Source: Palleronia pontilimi
GTDB lineage: Bacteria > Pseudomonadota > Alphaproteobacteria > Rhodobacterales > Rhodobacteraceae
Length of the DNA: 38,411 bases
NCBI RefSeq assembly: GCF_016412875.1
Contig: NZ_JAEKPD010000027.1
Span: 1 to 38,411 of the forward strand
Direction of reading: 5' to 3'
The notes under the pieces are model-generated. The model was not told the origin of the DNA. It saw only the letters and a list, made by a program, of their open reading frames with translations, and did no database searches. Position 1 is the first letter of the stretch. Each line of letters starts with the position of its first letter. Shown piece by piece: positions 26,893-38,411 of this stretch. Made by a program: the position numbers and the translations under genes.

Positions 26893-27198
26893 TTACCAGC
26901 TCGACTTGACCATGCCGGGGATCTGGCCATCCGAGCCAAGATCCCGGAGCGCGATCCGCGACATTTTCAGTTTGCGGTAGTAGCCGTGCGGACGGCCCGT
27001 CAGTTGGCACCGGTTGTGCAGACGGGTGGCCGAGGAATTGCGCGGCAGCTTGGCCAGCTTCAGCTGGGCCTTGAACCGCTCTTCCATGGGCTTCGATTCG
27101 TCGCGCGCGATGCCTTTCAGCTCGGCACGCTTGGCGGCATACTTGTCCACCAGGGCCTGACGCTTCTTTTCGCGCTCGATCATTGCTTTCTTCGCCAT
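26893..27198 (-). CDS. rpsN: 30S ribosomal protein S14 (zinc-independent type)
   Basis: S14 is in the small-subunit head. The 101-residue protein is the long, zinc-independent C- form: it has the full N-terminal region ([20 protein letters not shown]) and lacks the CxxC pairs of the short form. [24 protein letters not shown] is the family motif. It follows rplE by 14 bases. Confidence 0.97.
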
Positions 27199-27212
27199 GA
27201 GTTCTGTTCCTC

Positions 27213-27776
27213 TCAGCTGTTGAAGGGCATGTTGAAATGCTTCAACAGCGCTTTGGCTTGGGCGTCGTCGGACGCGGTGGTGCAGATCACGATATCAAGG
27301 CCCCAGGCTTCGTCGATCTTGTCGAAGTTGATCTCGGGGAACACGATATGTTCCTTCATGCCCATGGCGTAGTTGCCACGGCCGTCGAAGGATTTGCCGT
27401 TCACGCCGCGGAAGTCGCGGACGCGCGGCAGCGCGATGGTGATCAGGCGGTCCAGGAATTCGTACATCCGGTCGCCGCGCAGGGTCACCTTGGCCCCCAG
27501 CGGCATGTCTTCGCGGACGCGGAAACCGGCGATGGACTTCTTGGCCTTGGTGATGACGGCCTTCTGGCCCGCGATCGCGGTCAGGTCGTCGGCCGCCGAC
27601 TTGGCCTTCTTGCTGTCGCGCACGGCTTCGGCACCGGCGCCGATGTTCAGCACGATCTTGTCCAGGCGCGGGATCTGCATCGGGTTGGTGAACCCGAATT
27701 CTTCCTTCATCGCGGCCTTGATCTCGTCGTTGTACTTGGCGCGCAGACGGGGGGTGTAGTTTGCGGTATCGAGCAT
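27213..27776 (-). CDS. rplE: 50S ribosomal protein L5
   Basis: L5 binds 5S rRNA and contacts P-site tRNA. The 187-residue protein starts [20 protein letters not shown] and carries [40 protein letters not shown] and the C-terminal [20 protein letters not shown]. Its ATG shares one base with the rplX stop (TGATG), so coupling with rplX is expected. Confidence 0.98.
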
Positions 27777-28081
27777 CAGATCACGTCTCCCGTGGTCTTG
27801 GCGACGCGGACCTTCTTGCCGTCTTCGATCTTGAAGCCGACGCGGGTCGCTTTGCCGTTTGCATCCAGCAGGGCCAGGTTCGACAGGTCGATGGGCATCG
27901 CCTTCGGCGTGCGTCCACCTTGGCTGGACTGGCTTTGCTTGACGTGGCGGATGGCGATGTTGACGCCTTCGACCACCGCCTTGCCAGCGGCGGGGTTCAC
28001 GGACTGGATCTCGCCCTGCTTGCCCTTGTCCTTACCGGCAAGAACGACGACCTTGTCACCCTTTTTCAGTTTGGCAGCCAT
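27776..28081 (-). CDS. rplX: 50S ribosomal protein L24
   Basis: L24 is an assembly-initiator protein at the tunnel exit. The 101-residue protein has the KOW motif near its N-terminus ([19 protein letters not shown]) and the [19 protein letters not shown] segment typical of L24. It starts immediately after the rplN stop and overlaps rplE by one base. Confidence 0.97.
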
Positions 28082-28450
28082 TTACAGCACCTCCGGGGCG
28101 AGCGAGATGATCTTCATGAAGTTCTTCGCGCGCAGCTCGCGAACCACCGGTCCGAAGATACGGGTGCCGATCGGCTCGTTGTTATTGTTGAGGATGACGG
28201 CGGCGTTCCGATCGAACCGGATCGCGGTGCCATCGTCGCGGCGCACTTCCTTGGCGGTGCGCACGACGACGGCCTTGCGGACGTCGCCCTTCTTCACGCG
28301 GCCGCGCGGAATGGCTTCCTTGACCGACACAACGATGATGTCGCCCACGGATGCGTATTTCCGCTTCGAGCCGCCGAGGACCTTGATGCACTGAACACGG
28401 CGCGCGCCGGAATTGTCAGCGACATCCAGATTGGTCTGCATCTGGATCAT
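28082..28450 (-). CDS. rplN: 50S ribosomal protein L14
   Basis: L14 lies at the subunit interface. The 122-residue protein starts [20 protein letters not shown] and ends [11 protein letters not shown], the normal termini of the family. It directly abuts rplX. The upstream gap to rpsQ is 75 bases and contains a stem-loop, which is unusual for these otherwise tightly packed genes. Confidence 0.98.
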
Positions 28451-28468
28451 GGGGTGTCTCCCGACCTT

Positions 28469-28496
28469 TGGGGTGAGCTTCGCTCGTTACTCCCCA
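28469..28496 (-). other. Stem-loop between rpsQ and rplN
   Basis: TGGGG (28469-28473) pairs with CCCCA (28492-28496), and inside it GAGC (28475-28478) pairs with GCTC (28482-28485) around TTC. It occupies the middle of the 75-base rpsQ-rplN gap. No T-run follows. A processing or translational-control structure is inferred. Confidence 0.45.
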
Positions 28497-28525
28497 GGGT
28501 TTCGATTGACTGGAATGTCAAAGCC

Positions 28526-28756
28526 TTAGTTGGCGATGACCTCCCAGCGTTTGGTTTTCGACTTCGGCGCACATTCCTGGATACGGACCTGGTCGCCGAC
28601 GTTGAACTGGTTGGTCTCATCGTGAGCCCGGTACTTCTTGGACTTACGGATCGTCTTTTTCAGAACGGGGTGCGTGAAGCGCCGCTCGACCGACACGGTG
28701 ACGGTCTGTTCGTTCTGGTTGCTGGTGACGGTGCCGGACAGGATGCGTTTGGGCAT
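28526..28756 (-). CDS. rpsQ: 30S ribosomal protein S17
   Basis: S17 is an OB-fold primary 16S rRNA-binding protein. The 76-residue protein starts [20 protein letters not shown] and has the [20 protein letters not shown] motif and the [23 protein letters not shown]-terminal signature. It follows rpmC by three bases. Confidence 0.97.
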
Positions 28757-28759
28757 GGA

Positions 28760-28984
28760 TCAGGCCTCCGCTTCGGTGGTTGCAGCGGCCGAGGCCGCCT
28801 TTTCGTTCAGGATGGTCTTCACGCGGGCGACGTCACGCTTGACGTTGCGGATCTGCGCGGTGTTTTCCAGCTGGTTCGTGGCCGCCTGGAAGCGCAGGTT
28901 GAACGCTTCTTTCTTCAGGTTGACCAGATGATCCCGAAGCTCGTCGGGCGTCTTGTCACGCAATTCGTTGGCTTGGAGAGCCAT
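28760..28984 (-). CDS. rpmC: 50S ribosomal protein L29
   Basis: L29 lies at the tunnel exit and forms part of the docking site for trigger factor and SRP. The 74-residue protein starts [20 protein letters not shown] and has [20 protein letters not shown]; the C-terminus is extended by an Ala/Glu-rich tail (about 62-74). The ATG at 28984 is supported by AAAGGAAG; longer in-frame starts run through its promoter. It heads the rpmC-to-adk block, separated from rplP by non-ribosomal genes. Confidence 0.97.
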
Positions 28985-29062
28985 GATGTCTTCCTTTGCA
29001 ACATCACCGGAGGGCCGTGCGAACACGTCACCCTGATTCCCGGTGGAGGTGGATGAAGGGGC

Positions 29063-29091
29063 CGTATAGGAGGGTTGGCGGGGGTTGGCAA
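29063..29091 (-). promoter_or_regulatory. Predicted promoter of the rpmC-to-adk block
   Basis: On the minus strand TTGCCA (29091-29086) and TATACG (29068-29063) are exactly 17 bp apart, with five and four matches to the sigma70 hexamers. Transcription would begin near 29056, about 70 bases before rpmC. It lies immediately after the stop of the secreted-protein gene, so the L29-to-Adk genes appear to be expressed independently of rplB-rplP. Confidence 0.65.
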
Positions 29092-29104
29092 GGCCCATGA
29101 GCCA

Positions 29105-29470
29105 CTAATCGGTGGTGCAGTTCCCGAAGTGCTGAGCGGCTATGAATTCATTTAGGATCAGTGTGTTCCTTGAATGAACCGCGAGGCCATCATTGCTGAT
29201 TGTAGTAGACTGCACAGCACCCGACGGCGTTGTCTCGACGAAGCTGAACGCGTCTTCACCCACGTAGATTTGTACTTCAACGATACCGGCGTTTCCCTCC
29301 ATGAATACGCGCTCCGAAAGTGTATCCAGCCTGAAAATCAAAAAGAATTCCTCCTCAGAGCGTCCCTCTTCATCGATTCGATAGTGAAAATCGCAGTCCC
29401 AAGTGAAAACCGCTCCTTTTGCCACCGTAGACAAGTTTACTAGGAGAAATGCTATCGCAATGAGACGCAC
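29105..29470 (-). CDS. Small putative secreted protein of unknown family (GTG start)
   Basis: I do not recognise this 121-residue protein. A signal peptide of about 19 residues (MRLIAIAFLLVNLSTVAKGA) precedes a short mature domain with two cysteines (WDCDF and GNCTTD), which could form one disulfide. The start is a GTG directly after the oxygenase TAG stop, with GGGGAAG upstream, so it appears to be translated from the oxygenase mRNA. The DNA is visibly richer in A and T than the genes on either side, with less GC-biased third codon positions, which suggests recent acquisition or weak constraint. Confidence 0.65.
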   Translation of the reverse strand: MRLIAIAFLLVNLSTVAKGAVFTWDCDFHYRIDEEGRSEEEFFLIFRLDTLSERVFMEGNAGIVEVQIYVGEDAFSFVETTPSGAVQSTTISNDGLAVHSRNTLILNEFIAAQHFGNCTTD

Positions 29471-30094
29471 CTAGCTTCCCCACGCGTAATTGAAGCTCAC
29501 GCTCACCCGCTCGTCCTCGCTCATGTTCATTGGCACCTCGTGGCGGAGCCAGGATTCCCAGAGCAGCACCTCGCCCACCTGCGGCTTCACGTAGACGAAA
29601 TTGCGCAAGCTCTCGGGCGCGTCCTTTCGGCGGCCGGGGGCGGCCATCATCATGGGCAGGCGCGGGTCTTCGAACTTGATGGCGGAGGTGTCTTCGGGCA
29701 TCGCCACGTAGGTCGTGCCCGAGATCACTGAATGGGGGTGCAGGTGGCTGGTGTGGATGCCGCCTTCGGGCAGGATGTTGATCCAGATGTCTTCCAGCTT
29801 CAGCTTCTTGTCGCCCAGATCGAAGGCCAGGTCCGACGCGAAGGCGGCCACGTGCTTGTCCAGCGCCGCGACGAGATCCTTGAAGATCGAGAACCGCCAC
29901 GGCAGATCGGTGAGCGACGCGTAGGACGTGTAGCCCGGGAAGTCGTTTTCCTCGCACCAATCCTGTCCGGCCTCGTCATCCTCGGCGATGGAATTGCACG
30001 ACGCCGCCAGCTCGTTCGGGTCTATGGCGGGACCCCGCTCGGACAGGGCGGCGCGGTAAAGGCGGGTAACGAAAAGCGATGCGATCTCTGACAT
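29471..30094 (-). CDS. Putative 2-oxoglutarate/Fe(II)-dependent oxygenase (TIGR02466-like)
   Basis: This 207-residue protein resembles the TIGR02466/2OG-FeII_Oxy_5 family. The segment HTSHLHPHSVISGTTYV (114-130) matches the proximal iron-ligand region (His114/117/119/121 are candidates). LRHEVP places a distal His at 185, and ERVSVSFN has an Arg at 196 in the position that usually binds 2-oxoglutarate. The start at 30094 is chosen because the family N-terminus begins there; no strong Shine-Dalgarno is seen. Substrate is unknown. It lies immediately downstream of rplP and upstream of rpmC, splitting the ribosomal operon, and is coupled to the small secreted-protein gene. Hydroxylation of a ribosomal protein is a speculation from context. 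Confidence 0.78.
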   Translation of the reverse strand: MSEIASLFVTRLYRAALSERGPAIDPNELAASCNSIAEDDEAGQDWCEENDFPGYTSYASLTDLPWRFSIFKDLVAALDKHVAAFASDLAFDLGDKKLKLEDIWINILPEGGIHTSHLHPHSVISGTTYVAMPEDTSAIKFEDPRLPMMMAAPGRRKDAPESLRNFVYVKPQVGEVLLWESWLRHEVPMNMSEDERVSVSFNYAWGS

Positions 30095-30143
30095 GCGCCC
30101 CGCATAGCGCAGCGGCGTGCAAATGACGAGACTCCGGGATGGC

Positions 30144-30157
30144 TTGACCTCGATCAA
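30144..30157 (+). promoter_or_regulatory. FNR/FnrL-type box upstream of the DUF465 gene
   Basis: TTGAC-CTCG-ATCAA differs from the FNR consensus TTGAT-N4-ATCAA at one base, and sits within the palindrome CTTGA...TCAAG. A TAGGGT hexamer at 30181-30186 would place the transcription start near 30193, with the box centred at about -42: the class II activator position for the plus-strand gene at 30231. The divergent oxygenase starts 50 bases on the other side. Confidence 0.65.
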
Positions 30158-30230
30158 GTCGCCCCCCTTCGGCGTCGGCCTAGGGTCAGGCACGCAAGCC
30201 CGTAAATCCTGAGCAACCCCGGAGAGCCAG

Positions 30231-30470
30231 ATGCCCCACACCCCTCACGAGCTTGCCCGGGATTTGCCGTCGAACGTCGTGCAGCTCAAGAGCCTGCGGA
30301 ATTCCAACAGGCATTTCCTGCGGTTGTGCGAGGCCTATCAAGAGGTCAATCGCGCCATTCGGCGGGCCGAAACCCATGTCGAACCGACCTCGGACGAGCA
30401 CCTGTCCGAGATGCGCAGACGGCGCGTCAGGCTGCAGGATGATATCGCGCGGTGGCTGTCACAGGAATAG
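30231..30470 (+). CDS. DUF465/YdcH-family small protein
   Basis: This 79-residue protein matches the short, helical DUF465 (YdcH) family: FLRLCEAYQEVNRAIRRAE at about 29-47, then SDEHLSEMRRRRVRLQDDIARWL at the end, where the usual pattern is Lys-Asp-Glu-Ile. The function of the family is unknown. It is on the strand opposite to all surrounding ribosomal genes, with GGAGAG before the ATG, and its promoter region carries an FNR-type site, so induction under low oxygen is predicted. It ends about 130 bases before the 3' end of rplP, convergent with it, with a shared hairpin between. Confidence 0.82.
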   Translation: MPHTPHELARDLPSNVVQLKSLRNSNRHFLRLCEAYQEVNRAIRRAETHVEPTSDEHLSEMRRRRVRLQDDIARWLSQE

Positions 30471-30524
30471 CGGGCGACGGTACGCAGGGCGTCACGCGCG
30501 CCGATGGGCGGACTCCGAAAAGCC

Positions 30525-30554
30525 AAAAGCCCCCGCCAGCGAGGCGGGGACTTT
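30525..30554 (-). terminator. Intrinsic terminator after rplP (convergent with the DUF465 gene)
   Basis: CCCCGCC (30531-30537) pairs with GGCGGGG (30543-30549) over a five-base loop, and outer AAAG/CTTT pairs extend it past one mismatch. On the minus strand it reads into CTTTTGGCTTTTC, a good T-rich tail 46 bases after the rplP stop. On the plus strand CTTTCG follows, so it may serve both convergent transcripts. Confidence 0.75.
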
Positions 30555-30599
30555 CGTGATTTCAACTGACGGGCCCGGAAGTTGCGGGCCGCAAATCGT

Positions 30600-31013
30600 T
30601 TACCAGTCTTCGCGCATCACGGTGCGGGTCTTGACCGGCAGTTTCATGGCGGCCAGGCGCAGAGCCTCGCGCGCGACGTCTTCGTTGACGCCGTCGATCT
30701 CGAACATGACGCGGCCGGGCTTGACCTTGGCGGCCCAGAAATCGACCGAGCCCTTGCCCTTGCCCATGCGGACTTCGACGGGCTTCGATGTGACGGGCAC
30801 GTCCGGGAAGATCCGGATCCAGACACGACCCTGACGCTTCATGTGACGCGTCATGGCCCGCCGGGCGGCTTCGATCTGGCGCGCGGTGACGCGCTCGGGC
30901 TCGACCGCCTTCAGGCCAAAGGTGCCGAAGTTCAGGTCAGACCCGCCCTTCGCCTCGCCGCGGATGCGGCCCTTGTGCATCTTGCGGAATTTGGTGCGCT
31001 TCGGTTGCAGCAT
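30600..31013 (-). CDS. rplP: 50S ribosomal protein L16
   Basis: L16 supports A-site tRNA binding on the large subunit. The 137-residue protein starts [20 protein letters not shown] and contains [31 protein letters not shown], the loop that includes the arginine hydroxylated by YcfD in E. coli (Arg81; here the aligned position is within [11 protein letters not shown]). It follows rpsC by 12 bases. It is the last gene of the rplB-rplP block and is followed by a terminator rather than by rpmC. Confidence 0.98.
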
Positions 31014-31025
31014 GTCAATGCCTCC

Positions 31026-31733
31026 TTAGCGACGGCCGCCAGCGCCGCGCGGCGTGGGACCATCTTGAAGTTCCTGGGCGCGACGATCGCGGGCGGCGGG
31101 GTCATGCTCGAGGATCTCGCCTTTGAAGATCCAGACCTGGATGCCGATGATGCCGTACGCGGTCTTGGCTTCGACGCGGGCGAAATCGATATCGGCCCGC
31201 AGGGTATGCAGGGGCACGCGGCCCTCGCGGTACCATTCGGTCCGGGCGATCTCGGCACCGCCAAGGCGGCCTGCCAGGTTCACGCGGATGCCCAGGGCAC
31301 CCATGCGCATGGCGTTCTGCACCGAGCGCTTCATGGCGCGACGGAAGGACACGCGACGCTCGAGCTGCTGGGCGATGGATTCGCCGACCAGAGCGGCGTC
31401 CAGTTCCGGCTTGCGGACCTCGACGACGTTCAGGTGCAGCTCGCTGTCGGTCATCGCGGCCAGCTTGCGGCGCAGGGTTTCGATATCCGCGCCCTTCTTG
31501 CCGATGATGACGCCGGGGCGCGCGGTGTGGATCGTGACGCGGCACTTCTTGTGCGGACGTTCGATGATCACACGGCTGATGCCGGCGGCCTTGCACTCTT
31601 CCTTGATGAATTCGCGCATACGGATGTCTTCCAGCAGAAGATCCCCGTAATCCTTCGTGTCGGCGTACCAGCGGCTGTCCCAGGTCCGGTTGACCTGCAG
31701 GCGCATGCCGACGGGATTGACTTTGTTACCCAT
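31026..31733 (-). CDS. rpsC: 30S ribosomal protein S3
   Basis: S3 forms part of the mRNA entry channel and has helicase function with S4 and S5. The 235-residue protein starts [20 protein letters not shown], has a KH domain with [18 protein letters not shown] and the C-terminal [30 protein letters not shown]. Its ATG overlaps the rplV TAA stop by one base. Confidence 0.98.
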
Positions 31734-32113
31734 TACGCTTGCTCCTCGTTCTGGCGAACCTTGATGGTCAGTTCCGAAAACGGCTTGATGATCCGGCCGA
31801 ACCGGCCACGGGCCCGCGGGCGACCGCGCTTCATGGTCATGTTCTTGCCCACATAGGCTTCGGCGACGACCAGCTCGTCCACGTCCAGGTTGTGGTTGTT
31901 CTCGGCATTGGCGATGGCCGACTGAAGGCACTTGCGGACATCGTCCGAGATCCGCTTCTTCGAGAAGGTCAGATCCTGCAAAGCCTTTTCGACCTTCTTG
32001 CCCCGGATCATGGCCGCGACAAGGTTCAGCTTCTGAGGGCTGGTGCGCAGCATGCGGGTCTTGGCCATGGCTTCGTTGTCAGCCACGCGGCGGGGGTTCT
32101 TGTCTTTGCTCAT
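31733..32113 (-). CDS. rplV: 50S ribosomal protein L22
   Basis: L22 lines the exit tunnel with its beta-hairpin. The 126-residue protein contains [23 protein letters not shown] and the loop [22 protein letters not shown]. Overlaps of four bases with rpsS and of one base with rpsC show tight translational coupling. Confidence 0.98.
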
Positions 32114-32388
32114 TTCCGCTTCGCCTTCTTGTCGGCGGCGTGACCGTAATAGGTGCGGGTCGGGCTGAATTCGCCAAACTTCTGGCCGATCATTTCCTCG
32201 GAGACGTTCACCGGGATATGCTTCTTGCCATTATAGACGCCGAAGGTGAGGCCCACGAACTGGGGCAGGATGGTGGAGCGACGCGACCAGATCTTGATGA
32301 CCTCGTTGCGGCCGCTCTCGCGGGTTTTTTCGGCCTTCTTGAGCACGTAGGCATCAACGAAGGGGCCTTTCCAGACGGAACGCGACAT
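32110..32388 (-). CDS. rpsS: 30S ribosomal protein S19
   Basis: S19 is in the small-subunit head with S13. The 92-residue protein starts [20 protein letters not shown] and contains [20 protein letters not shown] and the [21 protein letters not shown]-terminus. It follows rplB by three bases. Confidence 0.98.
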
Positions 32389-32391
32389 CTA

Positions 32392-33234
32392 TCAGCGTCC
32401 TTTCTTCTTGGCGTGACGCGAGCGGATGATCAGCTGCTGCGACGCCTTGTTCTTGTTACGGGTCCGCGCGCCCTTGGTGGGCTTGCCCCACGGGGTCACG
32501 GGGTGACGGCCACCGGAGGTCCGGCCTTCACCACCACCATGGGGGTGGTCGACCGGGTTCATCACGACACCGCGCACGGACGGGCGGATGCCCTTGTGGC
32601 GGTTGCGGCCGGCCTTGCCGAAGTTCTGGTTGGAGTTGTCGGGGTTCGACACGGCACCGATGGTGGCCATGCATTCCTGACGAACCAGGCGCAGTTCGCC
32701 CGAGCTCAGGCGGATCTGGGCGTAGCCGCCGTCACGACCGACGAACTGGGCGTAGGTGCCCGCGGCGCGTGCGATCTGGCCGCCCTTGCCGGGCTTCAGC
32801 TCGATGTTGTGGATGATCGTGCCGATGGGCATGCCCTGGAACGGCATCGCGTTGCCGGGCTTCACGTCGACCTTGTCGCCGCTGATGATCTTGTCGCCGA
32901 TGCCCAGGCGCTGGGGCGCCAGGATATAGCGTTGCTCGCCGTCGGTGTACTGGATCAGCGCGATGAAGGCGGTGCGGTTGGGATCGTATTCGATCCGAAC
33001 CACGACGGCTTCCACGTCGTGCTTGGTGCGTTTGAAGTCGACGATGCGGTACAGGCGCTTGGCGCCCCCGCCCTTGCGTCGCATCGTGATACGTCCGGTG
33101 TTGTTGCGGCCACCGTGCTTGGTCAAACCCTCGGTAAGGGATTTGACCGGACGGCCTTTCCACAGCTCCGAACGGTCGATCAGCACCAGCCCGCGCTGGC
33201 CCGGCGTCGTCGGCTTATACGACTTGAGTGCCAT
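32392..33234 (-). CDS. rplB: 50S ribosomal protein L2
   Basis: L2 is needed for subunit association and the peptidyl transferase centre. The 280-residue protein starts [20 protein letters not shown] and contains [23 protein letters not shown] and, near the C-terminus, [18 protein letters not shown] with the conserved His of the active-site region. The ATG at 33234 is the family start; upstream in-frame codons fall in the leader. It heads the rplB-rplP block, but rplW is 2.9 kb upstream rather than adjacent. Confidence 0.98.
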
Positions 33235-33336
33235 GCTTTCTGTCTTCCGTTTATGTGGCGAGGCAGACGCGCCCCGCGATGTGAAGCGCCCTGTCGCCAG
33301 GTCGCCGGGTAGATGTCCGTGACGGACAAAAGCCAA

Positions 33337-33356
33337 GCCCCGGACGAATCCGGGGC
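33337..33356 (-). promoter_or_regulatory. Hairpin in the rplB leader (possible attenuator)
   Basis: GCCCCGGA (33337-33344) pairs with TCCGGGGC (33349-33356); on the minus strand the loop is TTCG, a stable tetraloop sequence. It is followed by TTGGCTTTTGTCC. Given the promoter at 33372-33400 it would form about 10 bases after the transcription start, roughly 100 bases before rplB. It might be a terminator/attenuator or a 5' stabiliser. A smaller dyad GTCCGT-G-ACGGAC lies at 33315-33327. Confidence 0.5.
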
Positions 33357-33371
33357 CTAGCCGATGGGCGG

Positions 33372-33400
33372 TGTCTATGGAAGGACGTGAAGCAGGTCAA
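33372..33400 (-). promoter_or_regulatory. Predicted promoter of the rplB-rplP block
   Basis: On the minus strand TTGACC (33400-33395) and TAGACA (33377-33372) are 17 bp apart. The -35 is strong and the -10 moderate. Transcription would begin near 33365 and give a leader of about 130 bases. The presence of a terminator after rplW makes an independent promoter necessary. Confidence 0.55.
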
Positions 33401-33519
33401 GGGTGACACGAAAACGCGCGAGCCGCACACGGCGCCTCGGCCGATCAGCTTCGATTTCACCGATGCGGCGGGTTCGTCTGCCGAAATATCGACACAATGA
33501 AAGTCTAGGGTCCGTTGCC

Positions 33520-34038
33520 ATGCAACGCATTTCAGACGGCCCAGCGATGGATATCCGGCGCGCGATGATCGGACTTGCCGTCGTCGGCGTGTTTGCGCTC
33601 GTCATCCTGCACCAGTTCGTGTTTTTTTCGCACGTGGTGGACCTGACCGTCATGCGCAATGATGCGCCTTCGTATTGTTCGACCGCACACCGCGACAATT
33701 GGTACCTGAGAGAGCGGGGCCGAAGCTCGGTTCCGCAAGACCCGCGTGGGTATTGCGGATCGATCCGGACGACGATGGGCAACTACAAGCTGCCCGACAG
33801 CAAATATTTCCTGAGCTTGCATCAGTCCCGTCCATATCTCGACGAGACGCTGGTCGAAGGATGCCGTTTCCGGGTGCTTGTCGTCGGCTACGGCAAGAAA
33901 TTCGCCAAGGGCGACAAGCCGCGAACGCCGATCAGGCAGAAGATTTCGCGCGTGGTCGAGGAATTGGGATGTTCCGGGAACCGGATCGGCGGCCCCGCGC
34001 CGGGTGTCAGGTTGCCAGCGCGCGCATCGGCAGGGTGA
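33520..34038 (+). CDS. Membrane-anchored four-cysteine protein of unknown function
   Basis: I do not recognise this 172-residue protein. A single hydrophobic segment at about 15-40 looks like a signal anchor. The rest is predicted periplasmic, with four cysteines at 53, 79, 115 and 151 that could form two disulfides. Middle motifs include GNYKLPDSKYFLSLHQSRPY and EGCRFRVLVVGYGKKF. The ATG at 33520 has AGGG about 9 bases upstream; longer in-frame starts have no support. It is on the opposite strand to the ribosomal genes, and its 3' end overlaps the kinase remnant by 32 bases in convergent orientation. Confidence 0.55.
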   Translation: MQRISDGPAMDIRRAMIGLAVVGVFALVILHQFVFFSHVVDLTVMRNDAPSYCSTAHRDNWYLRERGRSSVPQDPRGYCGSIRTTMGNYKLPDSKYFLSLHQSRPYLDETLVEGCRFRVLVVGYGKKFAKGDKPRTPIRQKISRVVEELGCSGNRIGGPAPGVRLPARASAG

Positions 34039-34459
34039 TCGCGCGGGACAGGCCGTGATCCGTCGCGCGCGTCTCGATCCGGCCTTCCAGCCGGACCGAG
34101 ATGCACAGGTCAATCAGTTTCGACCCGAACCCGGGCTGCGATCCGATGGCCATACCACCCCCGGGGCGATGTTCGCTCCAGTCGAGGATCACCGTGTCCT
34201 GGTCGACGATCCAGGACAGCGACAGGCTACCATCCGTGTTGCTGAGTGCGCCGTATTTCACCGCGTTCGTCGCCAGTTCGTTGATCGCCAGCGCCAGGTA
34301 TGCCGACGCATCGGGACCGATCCTGACGGCTGGTCCATCCCGGCCGATCGTCAGTCGGGCCGCGTCTGAATAGGGCTTCAGGACTTCCGAGACCAGGTCG
34401 GACAGCGCGATATCGCCCCGGCCGCTGGCGCCGTCGCGCCGCCGCGGACGGTCCGGCAC
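34007..34459 (-). pseudogene. 5'-truncated HWE-type histidine kinase remnant
   Basis: The 150 residues match only the C-terminal ATPase part of HWE-family sensor kinases: the N box NELATNAVKYGALS at 60-73, then WSEHRPGGG near 94-102 and GFGSKLIDL at 110-118, and an ITLPM ending. The phosphoacceptor His box and any sensor domain are missing; upstream the frame closes at a TAG near 34545 and has no ATG. The only start is a GTG without a good Shine-Dalgarno. It is best read as a decayed kinase, although a short stand-alone ATPase cannot be excluded. Confidence 0.6.
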
Positions 34460-34629
34460 CAGTCGCGGTGGGCGCGGGAGGGCCCGGCGGCAGGGGCTGG
34501 AGTCATCGGGTGACCCACGATCGAAACCGCCGTTACAGCTTCCCTAACGCTTGTCCGCCATCATCACGCGCGACCAAAGCCCCACTTTGACGACATATAA
34601 ATGACAATACGCGCCCGAGAGGTGGATTA

Positions 34630-35676
34630 ATGCCCGGATATATTTCCGAGCTCAGCTACGATGGGCCAAACGATTTCATCGAGGTCGTCGTTTCCGGCGG
34701 GACCGACATGTCGAGCTATGCCATCTATTACTACGACATATCGACGGGCGCGACCACCGGCACCATGTCATTCACCGCGAGCCCCGAGGCGACGATCGCG
34801 GGCAAGGACGTCTATCTCTTCGATCCCACCCATCCCGACTGGGCCGGCCTGGACGCGGGCCTTGCCTATGCGCTGGTCGATGACACCGGGACCGTGCTGC
34901 AGTTCGTGTCGGTGGATGGAAAGACGACAACCGCCACGGACGGCCCCGCAAACGGTCAGACCAGCACGAATATCGGCACTGTCACCGACGGCTCTTCGCT
35001 AGAGACCAGCGATCGCGGCGCGAGCTACGCGGTGCAACCTGCTGCAAACCCCGGAACGATCCCATGCTTCGCCACGGGCAACCTGATCGACACGCCGGAC
35101 GGCCCGCACCCGGTCGAAGACCTCGCCATCGGCGATCTGGTGATGACGGTGGACGCGGGTCCCCAGCCGGTGCGGTGGATCAACCGAAGATTCCAGTCTC
35201 TTGTGGATGCAGCGGACGACGCGCGCCCCGTCCTTTTCGCGCGCGGCGCGCTGGGGCCGGGGCGGCCGACAAGGGATCTTCTCGTGTCGCCGCAGCACCG
35301 CATCCTCGTCGGCACTGGCGGGCAACTCGAGAAGCTCTTCGACCATGCCCAACTGGTGCCCGCCAAGGCGCTGACCGGCCTGCCGGGGATCCGACACATG
35401 CGGGGCAGGAAGACGATCATCTGGGTGCATTTCCTGTGCGACGCCCACCACGTCGTCACCTCGAACGGGTGTCTCAGTGAAAGCCTTCTGCCGGGCCCAC
35501 AGGTCGTAGCGGGCCTTCGCGGATCTTCACGCACCTTGCTGTCGCAGATCCTCCAATCAGCGGGCACAGGTGACGGGCGGAACGTCGAGCCCGCCCTGCC
35601 CTTGCTGTCCGTGCAAGCCGCGCGGAAACGGGTGGCGTCGGCCAAGATCCCCGCGCGGGGACAGACACCCGCCTGA
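34630..35676 (+). CDS. Hint-domain protein with lamin-tail-like N-terminal domain
   Basis: This 348-residue protein carries a Hint (Hedgehog/intein) module from about 146 to 290: CFATGNLIDTPDG with the nucleophile-position Cys146, DLAIGDLVMTVDAGPQPVRWI, SPQHRILV (His223) and DAHHVVTSNG (His273/274). It lacks a clear C-terminal extein junction, as in roseobacter Hint_2 proteins. Residues 4-115 resemble a lamin-tail-type beta domain (ISELSYDGPNDFIEVVVSG). No signal peptide is obvious. GAGAGG precedes the ATG by 7 bases. Function of this class is unknown; secretion or adhesion roles have been suggested for related proteins. It is one of the genes inserted between rplW and rplB. Confidence 0.85.
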   Translation: MPGYISELSYDGPNDFIEVVVSGGTDMSSYAIYYYDISTGATTGTMSFTASPEATIAGKDVYLFDPTHPDWAGLDAGLAYALVDDTGTVLQFVSVDGKTTTATDGPANGQTSTNIGTVTDGSSLETSDRGASYAVQPAANPGTIPCFATGNLIDTPDGPHPVEDLAIGDLVMTVDAGPQPVRWINRRFQSLVDAADDARPVLFARGALGPGRPTRDLLVSPQHRILVGTGGQLEKLFDHAQLVPAKALTGLPGIRHMRGRKTIIWVHFLCDAHHVVTSNGCLSESLLPGPQVVAGLRGSSRTLLSQILQSAGTGDGRNVEPALPLLSVQAARKRVASAKIPARGQTPA

Positions 35677-35827
35677 CCCGAGGTGTGTTGCAGTCTCAGG
35701 GCCCCCTCTCGGAAGCCGGGCACGCCGTCGCTGACGTTGATATGGACGCCGCGGTCGGCCCATGGTGCCTGTGGAACGCAGCCCGTGCGTCTTGGGCGCA
35801 ATGCGAAGCCGTCGCTGCCGAAAAAAG

Positions 35828-35992
35828 CTAGTAACTTGGCGCGCAGTCGATGTCGGCGGACAGGTCTTGCACGGGATCGGCGGGCGAACAGGGCTGCTCC
35901 GACATTGGATAGGTCGTGGCCGGTTCCTGTTCCGCACAGGCGGCAAGGCCGAGGATCGGGACGAGGGCGAGCAGGACGGGCGCGGGTTTCAT
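35828..35992 (-). CDS. Small putative lipoprotein
   Basis: The 54-residue sequence begins MKPAPVLLALVPILGLAACA, a typical lipoprotein signal with the lipobox LAAC (predicted lipidated Cys19). The short mature part is Pro/Asp/Ser-rich with two more cysteines. An in-frame ATG at 36013 would add seven residues before the signal, so 35992 is preferred. An FNR-like dyad is centred about 68 bases upstream. The family is unknown. The 150 bases between it and the Hint gene hold no gene I can support. Confidence 0.6.
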   Translation of the reverse strand: MKPAPVLLALVPILGLAACAEQEPATTYPMSEQPCSPADPVQDLSADIDCAPSY

Positions 35993-36053
35993 GATGGTGT
36001 CCACCGGGTTCATGTCGTTTCACCGGGTGTAGCCGGACCCTTGCGCGCTCGTC

Positions 36054-36067
36054 TTGACTTCGCTCAA
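36054..36067 (-). promoter_or_regulatory. FNR-like dyad upstream of the lipoprotein gene
   Basis: TTGAC-TTCG-CTCAA, within the 16-bp CTTGACTTCGCTCAAG, differs from the site at 30143-30158 at two positions. Read on the minus strand it would be centred near -41 for a start at about 36019, with TACACC as a -10. It is a weaker FNR match than the first site. Confidence 0.45.
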
Positions 36068-36093
36068 GTCCGCATCGCGGCCCGCCACCAACG

Positions 36094-36123
36094 AAAAAGG
36101 CCCCGCGTCGCCGCGGGGCCTTT
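36094..36123 (-). terminator. Intrinsic terminator after rplW
   Basis: AAAGGCCCCGCG (36096-36107) pairs perfectly with CGCGGGGCCTTT (36112-36123) around a four-base loop, and on the minus strand the stem runs into TTTTTCG. It begins 24 bases after the rplW stop. It is as strong an intrinsic terminator as any in the window and lies in what is elsewhere the middle of the S10 operon. Confidence 0.88.
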
Positions 36124-36146
36124 CCCAATCCGTCCTGTGACCGGTG

Positions 36147-36443
36147 TCAAAGACCCGTCGATACGTCGATCGTGTTGCCTTCTTCCAGCGTCACGTAGGC
36201 TTTCTTGACGTCGCGCCGCTTGCCGGGCTGACCGCGGAAGCGCTTGGTCTTGCCCTTGGTGATGGACGTGTTGACGGCCTTCACCTTGACGTTGAACAGC
36301 GTCTCGACCGCTTCCTTGATCGCCGGTTTCGCGGCGCTCATCGCCACTTCGAAGACAACCGCGCCGTTTTCGGACGCCATGGTGGCCTTTTCGGTGATGA
36401 TCGGCTTGCGGATCACGTCGTAATGCTCTGGCTTCGTGCTCAT
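36147..36443 (-). CDS. rplW: 50S ribosomal protein L23
   Basis: L23 is the tunnel-exit docking site for trigger factor and SRP. The 98-residue protein contains [20 protein letters not shown] and [36 protein letters not shown]. It overlaps rplD by four bases. Here it is the last gene of the rpsJ-rplC-rplD-rplW block, followed by a strong terminator instead of rplB. Confidence 0.98.
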
Positions 36444-37060
36444 TTCAGGCGAGCCTCCAGTGCTTCGATACCGGCCTTGGTGATGACCAGGGTATCGCGC
36501 TTCAGGATGTCATAGACGTTGGCGCCCATCGAGGGCAGCACGTCCAGACCGTCGATATTGGCCGCGGCCTTGGCGAAATTCTCGTTCACCTCGGCCCCGT
36601 CGATGACCAGCGCACGCTTCCAGCCCAGATCCCGGATCTGCTTGGCCAGGGTCTTGGTCTTGGCGTCTGCGATGTCCAGGTTGTCCAGGATCACGACATT
36701 GCCTTCCGCCTGCTTGGCCGACAGCGCGTGGCGCAGGCCCAGCTTGCGGAACTTCTTGGTCAGCTCGTGACCGTGGCTGCGCACGACCGGGCCCTTGTAG
36801 ACGCCACCGCCGCGGAAGATCGGCGCCGAGCGCGCACCGTGGCGTGCGCCGCCGGTGCCCTTCTGGCGATAGATCTTCTTGGTCGAGTAGCTGACTTCGG
36901 ACCGGGTCTTGACCTTGTGCGTACCGGCCTGCGCGTTGTTGCGCTGCCAGCGGACCACGCGGTGCAGGATGTCGATGCGCGGCTCGAGCCCGAACAGGGC
37001 GTCGTCCAGTTCGACCGATCCGGCCTTCGAGCCGTCCAGTTTGATGGCATCAGTTTTCAT
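36440..37060 (-). CDS. rplD: 50S ribosomal protein L4
   Basis: L4 lines the exit tunnel and represses the S10 operon in E. coli. The 206-residue protein has the typical extended loop with [21 protein letters not shown] and the [24 protein letters not shown] segment. Its start lies 11 bases inside the 3' end of rplC, and it overlaps rplW by four bases at its end. Confidence 0.98.
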
Positions 37061-37931
37061 CGTCGCCCTCCTTCTTCTCGGTGGCGTCGCTGTTGTCGGT
37101 GTCCGAACCTTCGGCGTCGATCTGGGCTTCGGCTTCCTTCAGCGCGGCGGCCTGCTGCTCGGCGGCTTCCTGGGCCAGGCGCTCGGCTTCCGCGGCTTCA
37201 GCGGCGGCGGCTTCCTCGGCGGCGGCTTGTGCCAGTCTTTCGGCTTCCTCGGCGGCGGATTTCAGCGCGGCGGGATAGATCACGTTCTCGGGCGTGGCTT
37301 TCTTGACCGCGTCCTTGATCGTCACCCAACCGCCCTTCGAGCCCGGCACGGCACCCTTGACCATGATCAGGCCACGCGCGCTGTCGGTCTTGATGACCTG
37401 CAGGTTCTGCGTTGTGACACGGGCAGCGCCCATGTGACCGGCCATCTTCTTTCCCTTGAACACCTTGCCGGGGTCCTGGCACTGGCCCGTCGAGCCGTGC
37501 GAGCGGTGGCTGATCGACACGCCGTGGCTGGCGCGCAGACCGGCGAAGTTGTGCCGCTTCATGGCACCGGCAAAGCCTTTACCGATCGACGTGCCGGACA
37601 CGTCGACATACTGGCCTTCGAAGTAATGCGACGCGATGATCTCTTCACCCACGTCGATCATGTTCTCGGGGGCCACGCGGAATTCGGCGATCTTGCGCTT
37701 GGGTTCCACCTTGGCCACCGCGAAATGGCCACGCATGGCTTTCGAGGTGTTCTTGGCCTTCGCGGTGCCCGCGCCCAGCTGAACGGCGGCATAGCCGTGT
37801 TCGTCCGGGGTGCGCTGAGCGACCACTTGCAGCTTGTCGAGTTGCAGGACGGTGACGGGCACTTGCCGGCCATCTTCCTGGAAGATGCGCGTCATGCCCA
37901 TCTTCTTTGCGATAACGCCTGAGCGCAGCAT
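37050..37931 (-). CDS. rplC: 50S ribosomal protein L3 with long acidic C-terminal tail
   Basis: L3 starts large-subunit assembly near the peptidyl transferase centre. Residues 1-215 are normal L3, with the [21 protein letters not shown] motif; Gln150 is the site methylated by PrmB in other bacteria. Residues about 223-293 are an extra tail of Ala, Glu and Gln, with a repeated ERLAQ-type unit predicted to form a helix or coiled coil, ending in an acidic stretch. The total of 293 residues is well above the ~210 of E. coli. Similar tails occur in alphaproteobacterial L3. The stop lies within rplD, an 11-base overlap. Confidence 0.98.
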
Positions 37932-37932
37932 G

Positions 37933-38253
37933 TCAGCCCCCCATCACTTTGATGTCGACGGCCACACCGGCAGCCAGGTCGAGCTTCATCAGCGCGTCCA
38001 CGGTCTGGGGGGTGGGATCGACGATGTCGAGCATCCGCTTGTGGGTGCGGATTTCGAACTGGTCCCGGGACTTCTTGTCCACGTGGGGACCACGCAGGAC
38101 GGTGAATTTCTCGATCTTGTTGGGCATGGGGATGGGTCCCCGCACCGAAGCGCCGGTGCGCTTGGCGGTCGAGACGATTTCCTGGGTGCTGCTGTCGAGC
38201 ACCCGGTAATCGAACGCCTTCAGGCGGATGCGAATGTTCTGGCTGGCGGCCAT
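37933..38253 (-). CDS. rpsJ: 30S ribosomal protein S10
   Basis: S10 is a head protein of the small subunit that also binds NusB as NusE in antitermination. The 106-residue protein starts [20 protein letters not shown] and includes [29 protein letters not shown]. The ATG at 38253 has AAGGGA at 8 bases; the ATG at 38262 is too close to the same site. It is one base from rplC. The 129-base gap to tuf carries a hairpin and a TATACT hexamer at 38325-38330 with no good -35, so read-through from tuf is also possible. Confidence 0.97.
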
Positions 38254-38336
38254 TGGTGTCATTCCCTTGACAGGGTTTCAGTCGAGAGGTGGGGCGAAGC
38301 TCATCCCCCGCGCCACATCGGACCAGTATATGTGGT

Positions 38337-38359
38337 GCCGGACGCACGAGGCGCCCGGC
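38337..38359 (-). other. Stem-loop between tuf and rpsJ
   Basis: GCCGGACG (38337-38344) pairs with CGCCCGGC (38352-38359), with one position becoming G-U in the minus-strand RNA and a seven-base loop. It begins 23 bases after the tuf stop. There is no T-run, so it is not a clear terminator. Confidence 0.4.
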
Positions 38360-38382
38360 GGTCTTTGGGTCTGCGTCGCGGG

Positions 38383-38411
38383 TTACTCGATGATTTTCGA
38401 GACCACGCCGG
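38383..38411 (-). CDS. tuf: Elongation factor Tu, 3' end only (partial)
   Basis: Only the last eight codons and the stop are inside the window. They read GVVSKIIE and then TAA, the standard C-terminus of bacterial EF-Tu. The position directly upstream of rpsJ is the usual place for tuf in the str-S10 region. The rest of the gene lies beyond the window edge. Confidence 0.85.

Follow-up and report, generated by a model that had tools for sequence, protein, structure and literature searches.

Why is the S10-spc ribosomal protein (r-protein) gene cluster of the marine bacterium Palleronia pontilimi interrupted by nonribosomal genes between rplW and rplB, and what does the interruption mean for its expression? 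The gene order of this cluster is usually presented among the most conserved in bacteria, and the reason for its cohesion is debated. We analyzed a whole contig of 38,411 bp (NZ_JAEKPD010000027.1), called the window here, from a draft genome of 3.72 Mb and 64 contigs. Sequence comparison indicates that the rplW-rplB gap is very probably a module boundary with separate transcription on its two sides. A reading of the window made from its letters alone (the sequence-only reading) had proposed that L3/L4/L23 and L2/S19/L22/S3/L16 are transcribed independently; a terminator, a promoter-like site, an Rfam leader and the separation of the two genes in one relative support this proposal.

The r-protein genes of the window run on the minus strand in the order rpsJ, rplC, rplD, rplW, gap, rplB, rpsS, rplV, rpsC, rplP, gap, rpmC, rpsQ, rplN, rplX, rplE, rpsN. 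The gene rplW (36147 to 36443, open reading frame [ORF] list and Pfam) ends at 36147 and rplB (32392 to 33234, same sources) starts at 33234, which leaves 2,912 bp of nonribosomal genes (33235 to 36146) between them, in agreement with the 2.9 kb reported earlier. Where the canonical arrangement is contiguous at rplW-rplB and rplP-rpmC, the window thus has gaps of 2,912 and 1,639 bp. The sequence-only reading had overlooked the second of these breaks, as well as the L2 leader and the family-wide spread of the layout described below.

We compared the window with 80 named rplB loci (the best 80 of 590 confirmed) and with 40 further stretches from additional relatives, and we used 11 loci from other alphaproteobacterial families as an outgroup. 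The comparison across Rhodobacteraceae that had been suggested showed that the break recurs in most relatives examined. When we surveyed the 14 S10-spc junctions from rpsJ through rpsN, 12 never exceeded 200 bp in the 80 Rhodobacteraceae loci and the window, the exceptions being rplW-rplB and rplP-rpmC. The rplW-rplB gap was measurable in 68 loci, with a median of 1,052 bp (59 above 150 bp and 44 above 500 bp). The rplP-rpmC gap, measurable on one strand in 63 loci, had a median of 2,119 bp; all 63 exceeded 150 bp and 58 exceeded 500 bp, and one additional locus was inverted. The outgroup loci were tight at both junctions (2 to 31 bp and 23 to 72 bp, respectively). Six family loci at the base of a tree of 117 loci (L116 and L126 to L130) had 55 to 129 bp at rplP-rpmC and 27 to 104 bp at rplW-rplB, save for L116 with 1,686 bp at the latter. 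The earlier statement that bacteria normally run from rplW to rplB without a break stands for the 11 outgroup loci; in the Rhodobacteraceae the break is common, so that this genome is not special. An assembly or binning artefact would also produce a break, and the genome is a draft in many pieces, but the break is internal to the contig and the same layout appears, with exceptions, across the 80 named loci and the 40 further stretches. We rejected this explanation on the ground that both breaks recur in relatives, and we give it a negligible chance.

A hairpin resembling an intrinsic terminator follows rplW (36092 to 36127, minus strand; sequence reading and our own scan). It is a GC-rich hairpin followed by a T run; the perfect 12-bp stem with a T5 tail reported earlier is present, although three of the five tail Ts also pair. 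Our scan counted Ts from the stem end, took hairpins up to 100 nucleotides (nt) past the rplW stop codon, and used shuffled sequences as a control. We classed loci by rplW-rplB gap as long (above 400 bp, n = 57), short (60 to 400 bp, n = 30) or tight (n = 15). Of the long-gap loci, 56 had a terminator-like hairpin, against a shuffle rate of 0.079; the corresponding figures were 18 and 0.067 for the short-gap loci, and 0 and 0 for the tight loci. Upstream of rplB, matrix and pattern scans found a promoter-like site, TTGACC-N17-TAGACA (33372 to 33400, minus strand), and the start that it predicts lies near 33365, where the sequence-only reading had expected one. In 35 of the 57 long-gap loci, the pattern TTGAC-N17-T[AC] stood 90 to 280 nt ahead of rplB, against a shuffle rate of 0.013. 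In one genome (G022), rplW and rplB lie on opposite strands of one contig with 139 kb between them. From these features we infer promoter activity and separate transcripts in P. pontilimi: module I (rpsJ-rplC-rplD-rplW) would end at the terminator at 36127 to 36092, and module II (rplB-rpsS-rplV-rpsC-rplP, its genes after rplB at 30600 to 32388 on the minus strand by the ORF list and junction survey) would start at its own promoter, near 33365, with an RF03142 leader. Another hairpin that resembles a terminator and has a T-rich tail lies at 33325 to 33356, downstream of the predicted rplB start and upstream of the L2 leader, and may be an early attenuator. By eye, GGCC-CGG hairpins of a similar kind stand ahead of the L2 leader in many relatives.

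The leader at the head of module II is the L2-Alphaproteobacteria leader RF03142 (33237 to 33306, minus strand), which scored 45.2 bits against a gathering cut-off of 37.8; its end (33237) sits two bases ahead of the rplB start codon (33234). We took all counts of this leader from searches with the Rfam model and set aside a cruder pattern test, which overlooks leaders that Rfam detects (for example, L145, which is G002, at 51.7 bits). In an order sample of 121 genomes, every one in the window's own family, 118 had RF03142 at an E value of ≤1e-4 and 108 exceeded the gathering cut-off. In a mixed sample of 60 relatives, 25 genomes were above the cut-off, and none of these was among the 24 from outside the family. 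The first hairpin of the leader covaries in alignment A4, which used 41 of 49 pattern-selected sequences: double-change cells numbered 24 versus 8.0 in shuffles, and the score was 0.239 versus 0.062, while two of the five covariation measures were no better than shuffles and the pattern that picked the sequences favors that hairpin. The 65 other loci were unselected; many have tandem or longer hairpins and others are leaderless. By eye, we saw tandem copies of the first hairpin upstream of rplB in L044, L052, L067, L070, L081 and L095, which suggests a duplicated binding site. A sequence just ahead of rplB, CGGAAGACAG (33240 to 33249 in the window), is near-invariant across the family and exceeds the needs of a Shine-Dalgarno sequence.

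The genes in the rplW-rplB slot of the window are the four described by the sequence-only reading, two of them on the opposite strand to the r-protein genes. They are a small lipoprotein-like ORF (35828 to 36013, minus strand; no Pfam match), a Hint_2-domain protein (34630 to 35676, plus strand; PF13403, E value of 1.2e-43), a truncated kinase-like ATPase (34007 to 34459, minus strand; HATPase_c_2 at 20.8 bits, under the cut-off of 27.4), and a four-cysteine membrane-anchored ORF (33520 to 34038, plus strand; no Pfam match). The same genome encodes a 49% paralogue of the Hint protein at another place, and 15 of 36 genomes have matches to the Hint protein, beside rplB only in the window. We measured insert diversity by all-frame comparison, since an earlier selection of ORFs contained spurious frames. 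Of 1,596 long-gap locus pairs, only 83 had any homologous frame in common at this slot, and the window's insert shared no frame with the other 56 long-gap loci. At the rplP-rpmC slot, 2,147 of 2,485 locus pairs shared a frame. This contrast points to an old shared gene set at the second slot and to strongly species-variable content at the first. On the tree, insertion of more than 400 bp required 20 Fitch changes at the first slot (101 loci, 56 inserted; mean of 33.2 with shuffled labels) and 7 at the second (98 loci, 73 inserted; 22.3 when shuffled). In the window's sister species, L032 and L147 (supports of 0.96 and 1.00; genomes G011 and G006), the gap is about 200 bp and the L2 leader is present, at 54.6 and 57.1 bits. 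In the next relatives, L112 and L113, the slot holds 5.66 kb of genes, none of them related to those in the window.

Repeated, mostly different inserts at one site might also mark an integration hot spot or a mobile element, of which the break would be the footprint. However, Pfam identified no integrase-like or phage gene in the window's rplW-rplB insert, the 12 other junctions have no insert, and leader and terminator are intact, and we consider this origin very improbable. A single mobile element shared at the first slot was rejected, as so few locus pairs share any frame. We favor instead an arrangement in which the inserted genes would be cargo and the slot would have been refilled independently in different lineages, and inserts would be tolerated since both sides are insulated beforehand by terminator, promoter and leader.

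Several observations weigh against a module boundary with its own promoter and leader. The rplW hairpin is missing from a stricter, ready-made terminator scan, because that scan requires the T run outside the stem. The TTGAC-N17-T[AC] pattern is absent in 22 of the 57 long-gap loci and present in 15 of the 30 short-gap loci. With a matrix trained on rpmC promoters, the window's site before rplB scores 8.6, under the 95% background of 9.43, and sites above that background occur upstream of rplB in 17 of 57 long-gap loci and in 0 of 30 short-gap loci. A general sigma-70 scan found no promoter-like site within 29000 to 38411. The passages on the L2 motif in the paper that described it rate it as borderline and give the basis for its ligand as "Closest," L2 having been chosen since rplB is the nearest gene (PMC7247131). 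Locus L116 has its 1.69-kb rplW-rplB insertion with a leader match of 21.8 bits, under the cut-off (G028), so the leader is not strictly required for insertion. Lastly, single linkage via shared frames unites 29 of the 57 first-slot inserts, and comparison of frames indicates that some of this content is related or moved together. The history of the window's clade fits a leader and short gap first and an insertion afterwards, and we call this order only a tendency because of L116.

The weakness of the promoter-like site before rplB leaves room for read-through, in which a leaky terminator would let most rplB mRNA come from the S10 promoter, with the inserts as passengers in one long transcript. 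In relatives with short gaps, a contiguous transcript is indeed possible. Two insert genes on the opposite strand do not fit such a transcript, nor does the concentration of terminator-like hairpins in long-gap loci over tight ones, nor the distance between rplW and rplB in G022. We judge read-through to be improbable.

A second boundary like the first probably splits module II from rpmC-rpsQ. Its gap in the window (29105 to 30599) holds a DUF465 protein (30231 to 30470, plus strand) and, on the minus strand, a 2OG-Fe(II) oxygenase-like ORF and a hypothetical ORF (ORF list, Pfam and junction survey). Downstream, a matrix scan found a promoter-like site, TTGCCA-N17-TATACG (29063 to 29091, minus strand), with a predicted start near 29056; a TTG-N17-TA site lies upstream of the element described next in 56 of 78 loci. 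This is a conserved, covarying element before rpmC (28985 to 29050, minus strand), which would head module III with rpmC and rpsQ (28526 to 28984, minus strand; ORF list and locus extraction). In most family loci it has three stems: the first pairs CACCGG with CCGGUG and is followed by a bulge, and a UNA/G internal loop comes between the second and the third, which is variable. As a conserved structured RNA ahead of an r-protein gene, it has the form of an r-protein leader. We aligned 78 sequences (alignment A1, leaving out 3 duplicates and 17 loci without the pattern, namely L116, L126 to L130 and the 11 outgroup loci). Paired cells made up 93.1% versus 81.6% in shuffles, double-change cells numbered 142 versus 40.1, and the covariation score was 0.371 versus 0.152, with slid registers reaching at most 0.157. 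By eye, four loci (L096, L105, L109 and L111) have an extra conserved hairpin region (GGATTC..GGGATTCG) ahead of the element, and there may be two types of it.

A model of the rpmC element (R1) scored 62.6 bits in the window, with one weak second match in the same genome (E value of 0.008). At an E value of ≤0.01 it matched 28 of the 60 mixed-sample genomes, all within the 36 from the family and none of the 24 outside, and it had no match either in the six loci at the base of the family or in the outgroup of 11. Its presence (81 of 98 loci) maps to the tree as one change. R1 matched 119 of the 121 order-sample genomes in a single copy each, though its training may have drawn on some of the same species. 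The rplB leader and the rpmC element lie on one contig and one strand in 110 of 118 genomes, at a median distance of 4,970 bp; in seven genomes they are on separate contigs, which may reflect assembly. On single contigs, modules II and III are separated by 104 kb in G134, by 518 kb with the order reversed in G155, and by 639 kb with an inversion in G169, and in these three genomes they must work alone.

Two more conserved, covarying elements precede rpsJ and rplN. The first (38251 to 38325, minus strand) heads module I, which comprises, all on the minus strand in the ORF list, rpsJ (37933 to 38262, with a true start codon that may be a few codons inside), rplC (37050 to 37931), rplD (36440 to 37060) and the closing gene rplW. 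In alignment A3 (60 distinct sequences of 73), 91.0% of cells were paired versus 68.7% in shuffles, with 162 versus 52.5 double-change cells and a score of 0.574 versus 0.197; for pair types and for pairs with double change, two of the five measures, the alignment did no better than shuffles. Its model, R2, scored 68.2 bits in the window and matched 27 of the 60 mixed-sample genomes, all within the family (E value of ≤0.001). Extraction of this element had missed 28 loci, of which 2 (L069 and L084) were short of sequence, 10 were recovered by R2, and 16 (5 family, 11 outgroup) gave no R2 match. The other element (28451 to 28507, minus strand) would be a fourth head, ahead of rplN, rplX, rplE and rpsN (26893 to 28450, minus strand; ORF list and junction survey). 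Alignment A2 (48 distinct sequences of 79) gave 98.8% paired cells versus 93.4% shuffled, 17 versus 1.3 double-change cells, and a score of 0.178 versus 0.070. Model R3 scored 60.5 bits in the window and matched all 121 order-sample genomes, one copy each, and all six basal family loci, but none of the 11 outgroup loci. Every one of the 119 R1 matches has the rplN element on its own strand, 507 to 623 bp downstream. G073 and G168 are the only 2 of the 121 genomes that lack both RF03142 and R1 matches at an E value of ≤1e-4, and they keep the rplN element; G113 lacks the RF03142 match only.

Do these elements act as feedback leaders? We infer both feedback and ligands. In this mechanism, surplus r-protein, most likely L2, would bind the RF03142 leader and lower module II expression, and we see about an even chance that L2 exerts this feedback. 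The elements could otherwise be 5' hairpins that stabilize mRNA or shape the ribosome-binding site. Such a role would suit the retention of CGGAAGACAG by the rplB start in five of the six basal leaderless loci. It would also suit the outcome of a crude search of 23S rRNA with a descriptor of the rpmC element's UNA/G internal loop, in which none of the 7 matches was a convincing mimic. However, each element is tied to a specific r-protein gene, conservation extends from the stems to the internal loops and bulges, and each occurs in a single copy per genome, always ahead of the same gene; we consider hairpins without feedback the less probable explanation, though a serious one.

Taken with feedback at each head, the data would allow a wider history, which we put forward tentatively and rate at a little under even. 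The S10-spc cluster of Rhodobacteraceae may have been rebuilt as four separately controlled modules under autoregulatory leaders before rpsJ, rplB, rpmC and rplN. Leaders would have come first, the operon would have become dispensable as soon as a module had a promoter and feedback of its own, genes would have entered at the boundaries, and modules would have drifted hundreds of kilobases apart. A family that opens S10-spc at exactly two boundaries, with RNA elements heading the pieces, allows a test of whether feedback leaders can replace cotranscription; if the history holds, it would be a natural experiment in which feedback leaders, rather than cotranscription, balance the ribosomal proteins. 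It also offers three new candidate r-protein leaders, and the borderline L2 leader gains the context expected of a regulatory head, a preceding terminator and a promoter-like site.

The Escherichia coli S10 operon has the same genes in the same order within modules and is under L4 feedback, and the window too has an element before rpsJ. The E. coli operon is a single transcript, whereas the window's locus is cut at rplW-rplB and rplP-rpmC. The E. coli spc operon begins with rplN, a start that the fourth element suggests for the window too, but its S8 feedback target lies inside the operon near rplE, while the window's structured element is directly before rplN. The rpsJ, rpmC and rplN elements seem previously undescribed. 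Rfam 15 reported none of them in the window at an E value of ≤1, and at gathering scores in eight relatives it reported only RF03142 (6 of 8) and none of the three. Our searches of open-licence literature brought up no account of a split Rhodobacterales S10 cluster or of leaders before rpmC or rplN. Neither PMC8632094 nor PMC6429828 names rpsJ, rplN, rpmC or rplB in its main text, PMC2864571 does not name rpmC, rplN or rpsJ, and PMC11109978 names only rpsJ among the four, for Peptostreptococcaceae. The Peptostreptococcaceae rpsJ motif (PMC11109978) and the Firmicutes S10 leader (named in PMC7247131) also stand before rpsJ, but in another phylum; no Rfam rpsJ family matched the window or the eight relatives, and it is by this Rfam search that those structures are set apart from ours. 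For RF03142, the passages of Eckert and Weinberg (2020, PMC7247131) on the motif mention no operon break, terminator, insert slot or sister elements, and what they describe is the same element in the same place, before rplB-rpsS-rplV-rpsC.

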